Shown here in pieces: positions 13,992 through 15,676 of a DNA stretch of 64,000 nucleotides (its first letter is position 1; each line of letters opens with the position of its first letter). The stretch is from Halogranum rubrum (lineage in GTDB: Archaea > Halobacteriota > Halobacteria > Halobacteriales > Haloferacaceae), in the NCBI RefSeq assembly GCF_900114455.1, contig NZ_FOTC01000003.1, positions 62,001-126,000 on the forward strand, given 5' to 3'. The notes beneath the pieces are model-generated. The model saw only the letters and a program-made list of their open reading frames with translations. It had not been told where the DNA came from and made no database searches. Both the position numbers and the translations under genes were made by a program.

Positions 13992-13999
13992 CTTATACC
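13992..13999 (+). promoter_or_regulatory. TATA box ahead of the ACT-hom operon
   Basis: CTTATACC is centred 27 nt before the ATG at 14023 and about 130 nt before the ACT-protein ATG. The transcript would therefore begin at or next to 14023. Confidence 0.6.
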
Positions 14000-14022: not shown

Positions 14023-14130
14023 ATGCAACGGGGCACGCACTACCCGAACTGCATCGGCACGGAACGACGACGCGTTGCGTTCCAGCCGACAACACCGACA
14101 GCGGCGCGTGCCACGGGAGGTGGGCGATGA
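14023..14130 (+). CDS. Possible leader ORF before the ACT-hom operon
   Basis: An open frame of 35 codons starting MQRGTHYPNC and ending with TTPTAARATGGGR. Its ATG lies exactly where a leaderless transcript from the TATA box at 13992-13999 would begin, and its TGA overlaps the next ATG in ATGA. It contains six Thr codons, four of them in the last third. Its basic composition is unlike most haloarchaeal proteins, which argues against a stable product. It may be a translated leader coupling expression of the downstream genes, or merely chance in a 5' untranslated region. I know of no described family. Confidence 0.35.
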   Translation: MQRGTHYPNCIGTERRRVAFQPTTPTAARATGGGR

Positions 14131-14732
14131 GCGAGAACGCCTCGGACACGTTCGATTCGAACGGCGGAGGCGACTCGGAAGTCGACGACGGCGACGGTAC
14201 CGAGACCGACGGTGGCGAACACCCACAGGCGCACACCATCCGTCTCGAACTCGTCGACGAACCGGGACAGCTGCTCGCGGCGCTCAGCCCCATCTCCGAG
14301 AACGGCGGCAATCTCCTGTCGATATTCCACGAACGCGGGAACCTCACACCGCGTGGGCGTATTCCGGTCGAAGTCGACCTCGAATGCCCGCCGGACCGCT
14401 TCGAGACCATCGTCACGGCACTGCGAGACAACGGCGTCAACGTCATCCAAGCCGGTGCAGAGCGGTACGGCGAGGAGTTGACGCTTCTGCTCGTCGGCCA
14501 CCTCATCGACACGGACCTCTCGGACACGCTCCAACGGATACAGCGGTGTGCCGACGCGACGGTGACTGACCTCTCGCTGTCGGCACCGGAAGGAACCGAC
14601 GACGTCTCCAGCGCACGTCTCCGTCTCGCGGCGCGGACGGGCAAGACGGAGCGTGTCCTCGACGCGATTCGCGAGGTGACCGACGGGAAAGACATCCACG
14701 TCGTCGAACCCCTGACGGAGGTGTCGGCGTGA
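14127..14732 (+). CDS. ACT-domain amino-acid-binding protein
   Basis: A 201-aa probable regulator. An acidic, Gly/Asp-rich tail (residues 1-33) is followed by an ACT domain beginning HTIRLELVDEPGQLLAALSPI, with the typical Gly-Asn pair in NGGNLLSIFHER. The second half (from about residue 115) has a similar alternation and may be a degenerate second ACT fold. ACT domains bind amino acids for feedback control. A GGAGGTG site lies 4 nt before the ATG at 14127. The stop overlaps the hom start, so the protein likely regulates homoserine dehydrogenase, probably in response to threonine or methionine; the ligand is inferred from context only. Confidence 0.85.
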   Translation: MSENASDTFDSNGGGDSEVDDGDGTETDGGEHPQAHTIRLELVDEPGQLLAALSPISENGGNLLSIFHERGNLTPRGRIPVEVDLECPPDRFETIVTALRDNGVNVIQAGAERYGEELTLLLVGHLIDTDLSDTLQRIQRCADATVTDLSLSAPEGTDDVSSARLRLAARTGKTERVLDAIREVTDGKDIHVVEPLTEVSA

Positions 14733-15676
14733 GCCTCCGTCTCGCCGTCCTCGGCGCGGGGGCGGTCGGTCAGTCGGTCGTCGAACTGGCGAGCGAGTAC
14801 GGCCACGTCGTCACCGCCGTCGCCGACTCCACGACGGCGACTGTCGACGCCGACGGACTCGACCCGGCGTCGGTGCTGGACCGCAAAGAACGGGAGGGGA
14901 CCGTCGGCGACGCCGACATCGAAGACGTCCTCGCATCCGACTACGACGTCCTCGTCGAGGCGACGCCGACGACGCTCGGCGACGCCGAACCCGGCTTCTC
15001 ACACGTGCGGAGCGCACTCGAAGCAGACCGACACGTCGTCCTCGCCAACAAGGGACCGGTCGCCGAGCGCTACGACGACCTGCGCGCACTCGAAGCCGAC
15101 AGCGCAGGAACCGTCCAGTTCGAGGCTGCCGTCGGCGGCGCTATCCCGGTTCTCTCGACCATCTCGGACTTCGGACCCGACCACATCAACGCCGCACGCG
15201 GTGTCCTGAACGGGACGGCCAACTTCATCCTGTCGCGGATGGCTGCCGAAGGACTCGGCTACGAACACGTCCTCGCGGAGGCCCAGGACCTCGGCGTCGC
15301 GGAGGCCGACCCCTCCTTCGACGTGGAGGGGACCGACGCCGCGCTGAAGTGCGTCATCCTCGCGAACGTCCTCGGCGACGGCGGCTACAGCCTCGACGAC
15401 GCAGAGGTCGAAGGGATACAGAACATCCCCGGTAGTGCACTCGACTTGGCGGCCGAAGACGGCCGAACAGTCCGTCTCATCGGCGAGGCGACACCCAGCG
15501 GCGTTCGCGTCGGCCCGCGACTCGTCCCGCAGAACGGCACGCTCGCCGTGAGCGGCACGCGAAACATCGTCCAACTGGAGACGGAGTACGCTGGGAATCT
15601 CAACCTGAGCGGTCGTGGTGCTGGCGGACCGGAGACGGCGACAGCCGTCCTCTCGGACGTCAGCCGAATCGAGTAG
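14729..15676 (+). CDS. hom: Homoserine dehydrogenase
   Basis: Reduces aspartate semialdehyde to homoserine, the branch-point step to threonine and methionine. The 315-aa protein opens with LAVLGAGAVGQSV (NAD(P)-binding loop), has VVLANKGPVAE near residue 105 and the catalytic-lysine region DPSFDVEGTDAALKC near residue 195-210. The C-terminal ACT domain present in many bacterial enzymes is lacking; an ACT protein is instead encoded by the preceding, overlapping gene. Translation starts at GTG in the GTGA overlap. No thrB, thrC or metX homologue lies next to it here. Confidence 0.92.
   Translation: MSLRLAVLGAGAVGQSVVELASEYGHVVTAVADSTTATVDADGLDPASVLDRKEREGTVGDADIEDVLASDYDVLVEATPTTLGDAEPGFSHVRSALEADRHVVLANKGPVAERYDDLRALEADSAGTVQFEAAVGGAIPVLSTISDFGPDHINAARGVLNGTANFILSRMAAEGLGYEHVLAEAQDLGVAEADPSFDVEGTDAALKCVILANVLGDGGYSLDDAEVEGIQNIPGSALDLAAEDGRTVRLIGEATPSGVRVGPRLVPQNGTLAVSGTRNIVQLETEYAGNLNLSGRGAGGPETATAVLSDVSRIE

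Follow-up and report, generated by a model that had tools for sequence, protein, structure and literature searches.

A candidate translated threonine leader upstream of the ACT-homoserine dehydrogenase operon in haloarchaea

The short ORF located immediately upstream of the genes for an ACT-domain protein and homoserine dehydrogenase in Halogranum rubrum is probably a translated, cis-acting threonine leader from which ribosomes would pass by termination-reinitiation to the ACT gene and then to the homoserine dehydrogenase gene. Sequence comparison with related genomes reveals a conserved frame, a conserved terminal overlap and an enrichment of threonine codons, without conservation of the encoded peptide; we infer the coupling of the leader to the ACT gene, the sensing of threonine and its sign, the readout and the refolding step. 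Together with leaders of matching composition that precede ilvB, pheS and a second trpS gene (trpS2), the threonine leader suggests that haloarchaea sense amino acids via leader translation. In bacteria, control by leaders whose rate of translation reports the supply of an amino acid is textbook regulation; to our knowledge, amino-acid-sensing translated leaders are essentially undescribed in archaea. If the interpretation is correct, four such leaders in one archaeal group, acting on leaderless mRNA, would mean that the principle exists in archaea, having either evolved independently or been transferred.

The leader ORF and the two downstream genes are encoded on the forward strand of the window, that is, the whole stretch of 64,000 nucleotides that was analyzed (Table 1). 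A preliminary description of this DNA had recognized a 35-codon frame with a promoter-spaced ATG, its ATGA junction with the ACT gene, the Shine-Dalgarno motif of the latter and a richness in threonine codons, all of which are confirmed; threonine accounts for 6 of the 35 codons (codons 5, 13, 23, 24, 26 and 31). Given the distance between the TTATA element and the leader ATG, a leaderless transcript is expected. The same description connected the leader with the synthesis of both threonine and methionine. The threonine part of this proposal stands, the threonine enrichment being frame-specific, whereas the methionine part lacks support because the sole methionine codon of the leader is the start codon; thus, the amino acid indicated is threonine or, in some genera, threonine together with isoleucine. 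The closest relative of the ACT protein is that of Halogranum amylolyticum (83% identity).

Table 1. Features of the leader region and the downstream genes (positions in the window)
Feature	Position	Strand	Comment
TATA-type promoter element, CTTATACC	13992..13999	+	TTATA begins exactly 30 nt 5' of the leader ATG
Leader ORF, MQRGTHYPNCIGTERRRVAFQPTTPTAARATGGGR	14023..14130	+	35 codons from ATG 14023; frame and terminal overlap kept in 61 loci
Predicted helix P2, 5' arm, GGCACGC	14032..14038	+	Complementarity to the bases after the threonine codons
Predicted hairpin P1, 5' arm, CGGCACGGAACG	14055..14066	+	Position shared by nearly all of 32 leaders
Predicted hairpin P1, 3' arm, CGTTCCAGCCG	14078..14088	+	Ends directly before the ACA codons
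Threonine codon cluster, ACA ACA CCG ACA	14089..14100	+	Codons 23-26; from sequence
Predicted helix P2, 3' arm, GCGTGCC	14106..14112	+	Pairs with GGCACGC
Shine-Dalgarno motif of the ACT gene, GGAGGTG	14116..14122	+	Within the leader ORF; conserved in relatives
ATGA overlap	14127..14130	+	Leader stop TGA 14128-14130, ACT ATG 14127; termination-reinitiation geometry
ACT-domain amino-acid-binding protein gene	14127..14732	+	201 aa; PF01842, 26.5 bits (Pfam cut-off 27)
Homoserine dehydrogenase gene	14729..15676	+	315 aa; PF00742, E 3.3e-50; GTGA overlap with the ACT gene

The comparison covered 66 ACT loci, namely 63 from a single ACT protein scan, the locus of H. rubrum itself and those from two genomes of the same genus. 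The leaderless frame is present in 61 of the 66 fetched loci. These leaders are preceded by TTATA or TTATC 30 nt before the ATG (27-28 nt in two cases), possess the N-terminus M-x-x-G-T or a close variant, and range in length from 34 to 69 codons, the stop codon overlapping or touching the ACT start in every case. The junction is mostly NTGA (ATGA or GTGA), and the rest are TAGATG, TGAATG or GTGATG. The combination of variable length with a constant end at the ACT start implies that insertions and deletions preserve the leader frame. The preliminary description had named a lack of conservation of this frame as evidence against a leader; the opposite is observed, with the TATA spacing, the start, the frame and the terminal overlap all conserved despite varying length and sequence. 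The arrangement is also rare. In 464 kb of the H. rubrum genome (400 kb of which were taken as stretches), 16 short ORFs (10-70 codons) are located 28-32 nt downstream of a TATA-like box; five of these lie directly next to a longer ORF (120 codons or more), and the leader starting at 14023 is the sole one of the 16 that exceeds 20 codons and has both TTATA and an ATGA overlap. A profile search of the genome retrieved the leader at its own locus and no convincing second copy, and comparison of the leader DNA with plasmids produced no match.

Threonine codons make up 16.8% of the leader frame, whereas the two other frames contain 5.3 and 5.6% and shuffled sequences 6.4%, with the qualification, applicable to all threonine and codon counts given here, that about half of the leader sequences come from Halorubrum, so that the counts are partly non-independent and are inflated by relatedness. 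The excess is detectable at shuffle p<0.05 in 46 of 58 leaders. Because conserved RNA motifs could in principle cause such an excess, it was determined separately for the unconserved part of the leader (codon 28 to five codons before the end), where 105 threonine codons are observed against 42 +/- 5.7 expected. Thus, the comparison of threonine codons across relatives, which had been proposed as a check, yields an enrichment that is specific for the leader frame and extends to its unconserved part. Codon 24 encodes threonine in 49 of 56 leaders and is ACA in all 49, and the share of ACA among threonine codons reaches 22% in the leaders against 2.8% in the ACT genes. In some genera, threonine and isoleucine occur together in PITII runs (e.g., SPITIIT, PITIIG), a combination known from thrL of Escherichia coli. 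The leaders of Haloferax are of the types MRKGT..SRTT.. and MRTGT..SPTT..

Two RNA helices are predicted to form in the leader. Hairpin P1 is predicted in nearly all of 32 leaders, including those of the AT-rich Haloquadratum (mean z -1.04), with weak column-wise covariation that is due to pairing in a different register in Haloferax. Helix P2 is suggested by the complementarity between the 5' region of the leader (codons 3-10) and the bases that follow the threonine codons (mean z -1.50 +/- 0.20 in the 32 leaders); the corresponding arms are CGGGCACG/CGTGCCTG in Halorubrum and TCCCGAC/GTCGGGA in Haloferax, and in Haloplanus the pairing extends over 11 base pairs. Since the threonine codons are located between the predicted P1 and P2, a ribosome positioned there would open both. 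Sequestration of the Shine-Dalgarno motif by the 5' end was considered as a general switch and rejected because the signal is weak (z -0.55), the helix pairing with the bases after the threonine codons instead. There is no terminator hairpin with a U-run in the leader, nor any run of four T in 14023-14130, and the covariance models of Rfam (Thr leader, T-box, riboswitches) yield no credible match for the threonine leader.

Under the proposed mechanism, transcription would begin at or beside the leader ATG, and ribosomes would initiate on the bare 5' end, finish the threonine-rich leader at the ATGA, reinitiate at the ACT gene and then, via the GTGA overlap, at the homoserine dehydrogenase gene, so that leader translation would supply the entire operon. 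In Haloferax volcanii, the ACT/homoserine dehydrogenase pair has been found experimentally to be strictly coupled (Huber et al. 2019, PMC6728339): translation of the downstream homoserine dehydrogenase gene is lost when a premature stop is introduced into the upstream ACT ORF, and Shine-Dalgarno motifs do not function in de novo initiation in haloarchaea (PMC6728339). These two properties combined predict that translation of the ACT gene depends on the leader. The cluster of rare ACA codons in the gap between P1 and P2 would make ribosome transit dependent on charged Thr-tRNA, and a ribosome paused at the threonine codons would melt both helices. Increased expression at threonine shortage seems most likely; a paused ribosome could hold open the 5' end or the nascent transcript and thereby allow more ribosome loading or continued transcription. 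Under strict coupling, however, stalling alone would reduce the output of the ACT gene, the opposite of what control by starvation requires, unless a further step such as this opening intervenes.

Among the 27 loci from other haloarchaeal families, the leaderless ORFs that end at the ACT start are 11 to 28 codons long, including ORFs of 11-17 codons (e.g., MTTCGRPRPGGEGNG and MTTTTSQRPAAGGGQNG), and some contain no threonine (e.g., MNRPPKQGAVS and MYAPRLASSIAEVNVR). The sequence MTT at the N-terminus of such short leaders is not taken as evidence of threonine enrichment because it is a common start of haloarchaeal proteins. One family (two loci) seems to have no leader, the ACT gene itself being leaderless. 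Given that the leaders in other families are short, not always threonine-rich and seemingly missing in one of them, the bare relay of ribosomes may be the older role, and the threonine-rich structured form may be a specialization of the family to which H. rubrum belongs.

The main reason to regard the threonine leader as a sensor, rather than as a relay alone, comes from matching leaders at ilvB, pheS and trpS2. A leader element with a run of branched-chain residues at its end is present in all 15 full ilvB loci, which represent several haloarchaeal families; the copy in H. rubrum (contig C16) is leaderless and encodes MTQSVTARGSASTASTAAVQSLIIVGAA, with SLIIVGAA at the end. The stop codon of the ilvB leader is located inside a GGGG-CCCC hairpin, GTAGGGGC-nnn-TAGCCCC. 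The pheS leader was detected in 8 loci with the sequence GFGFFF or similar and is represented in H. rubrum (contig C12) by the leaderless ORF MTSEPDVVRPVRELTTDGFGFFFGVC. The leader of the second, bacterial-type trpS reads WRW in each of 7 loci, with MQSAPDSICWRWWPHAVGADSLSVVDAVA, which includes CWRWWPH, in H. rubrum (contig C9, near 357,300); a consensus fold predicted around and after the tryptophan codons comprises 13 pairs that hold through double changes in the 7 sequences. None of the three leaders is present in Rfam. The match between leader composition and the downstream gene exceeds all 20,000 permutations, the leader sets having been picked by eye after discovery, and upstream regions of thrC, hisG and trpD contain no conserved leader. 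On balance, it appears likely that haloarchaea possess a general class of leaders sensing the matching amino acid (threonine at the ACT-homoserine dehydrogenase operon, isoleucine, leucine and valine at ilvB, phenylalanine at pheS and tryptophan at trpS2), all of them leaderless, with the threonine leader linked to its operon by termination-reinitiation.

It is possible, albeit rather unlikely, that the ORF upstream of the ACT gene is a ribosome relay only, such that a leaderless frame with an ATGA overlap hands ribosomes over to the ACT gene, whereas the threonine codons and the folds have no role in sensing. A role of this kind is assigned to short uORFs in a review (PMC12548453) and agrees with the short leaders of the other families, which end at the ACT start without always being threonine-rich, as well as with the finding that H. 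volcanii does not use Shine-Dalgarno motifs to initiate translation de novo (PMC6728339). What a relay leaves unexplained is the frame-specific threonine excess in unconserved codons, the invariant rare ACA with the flanking helix, and the correspondence between leader residues and genes at ilvB, pheS and trpS2. Alternatively, the region could be a structured RNA, either a riboswitch or a protein-binding element, in which the open frame is incidental. The third codon positions of the leader are indeed unusually conserved, with fewer synonymous changes than expected in codons 11-22, and P1 occurs at the same place in most leaders; nevertheless, this possibility appears improbable given that the frame is retained in leaders of many different lengths, with its end invariably at the ACT start, that the threonine excess is confined to one frame, and that Rfam provides no match.

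The conserved N-terminal motif M-x-x-G-T would be compatible with a functional microprotein, but the C-terminal half of the peptide is unconserved and its length is variable. Furthermore, a search for purifying selection on the peptide detected no synonymous bias between related leaders: the synonymous share of single-base codon changes is 0.25 versus 0.29 expected without selection, whereas for the ACT genes at these loci it is 0.78 versus 0.25 expected. This substitution pattern argues for a cis-acting leader, and the possibility of a microprotein, which is thereby rejected, seems very remote. Finally, open frames of 35 codons are not unusual in GC-rich DNA, and of the 58 leaders, 28 are open in frame +1 and 43 in frame +2, as might be the case for a chance frame without function. 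Frame 0, however, is open in all 58, and the exact terminal overlap at many lengths and the rarity of the arrangement in the genome leave virtually no room for this explanation, which is refuted by conservation.

As a translated threonine leader, the ORF resembles thrL of the Escherichia coli thrABC operon in that a short threonine-rich leader (with isoleucine too in some genera) precedes homoserine dehydrogenase genes; it differs in that the haloarchaeal leader is leaderless, overlaps the first gene with its stop codon, and has neither a terminator hairpin with a U-run nor an Rfam Thr-leader match. Bacterial pheM is a pheS leader attenuator with a run of the matching amino acid, as in the haloarchaeal pheS leader. 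Runs of matching amino acids, as in the haloarchaeal ilvB leader, are also found in the attenuator of ilvBNC in Corynebacterium (PMC11857589). Unlike these bacterial attenuators of pheS and ilvB, the haloarchaeal ORFs are leaderless and, judging by their sequences, putative leaders. The termination-reinitiation pairs of H. volcanii (PMC6728339, PMC10666635) share the ATGA overlap and the internal Shine-Dalgarno motif with the junction described here, but their upstream cistrons are ordinary genes, whereas in the present case an extra threonine-rich leader precedes the ACT gene. The uORF section of Babski et al. 2016 (PMC4983044) describes 16 uORFs located in long H. volcanii 5'-UTRs, similarly short ORFs before normal genes, including those of pheS and tryptophan--tRNA ligase, which fit the phenylalanine and tryptophan leaders found here; the uORF table of that paper does not contain the present operon, and the section does not discuss matching codons or regulation. 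No earlier example of attenuation or of leader peptides in haloarchaea emerged from the literature search, whose coverage did not extend to most subscription papers. The threonine leader precedes the very gene pair of H. volcanii that already serves as a model of coupling, so that the proposal is directly testable in that organism.

Several additional observations pertain to the upstream regions of these and other amino-acid genes. Downstream of the ilvB leader, the sequence up to ilvB appears by eye to be rich in C and poor in G in several genera, which would be expected of unstructured RNA, and stretches complementary to phenylalanine codons follow the phenylalanine run of the pheS leader. 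At the trpD promoter, about 20-100 nt upstream of the gene, 14 loci contain the conserved sequence TTAAGnnGATGTACnnATTTGTACAT...GTACAT, with a GTAC..GTAC palindrome, which is probably a repressor operator. A leaderless ORF of 22-29 codons is located upstream of leuA1 in 14 loci; leuA1 overlaps this short ORF in the +1 frame, and the overlap contains a strongly conserved sequence, CGGCGG(G/A)TCGAGTTCTTCCAGGGCA. No ATG or GTG start was seen in the LeuA frame there, which might point to a non-AUG start or a +1 frameshift. The second leuA/cimA copy is preceded, in five loci from Halogranum and its relatives, by a different conserved leaderless ORF, MSEHTPTDEDRVSRREAAGCEILRVN.
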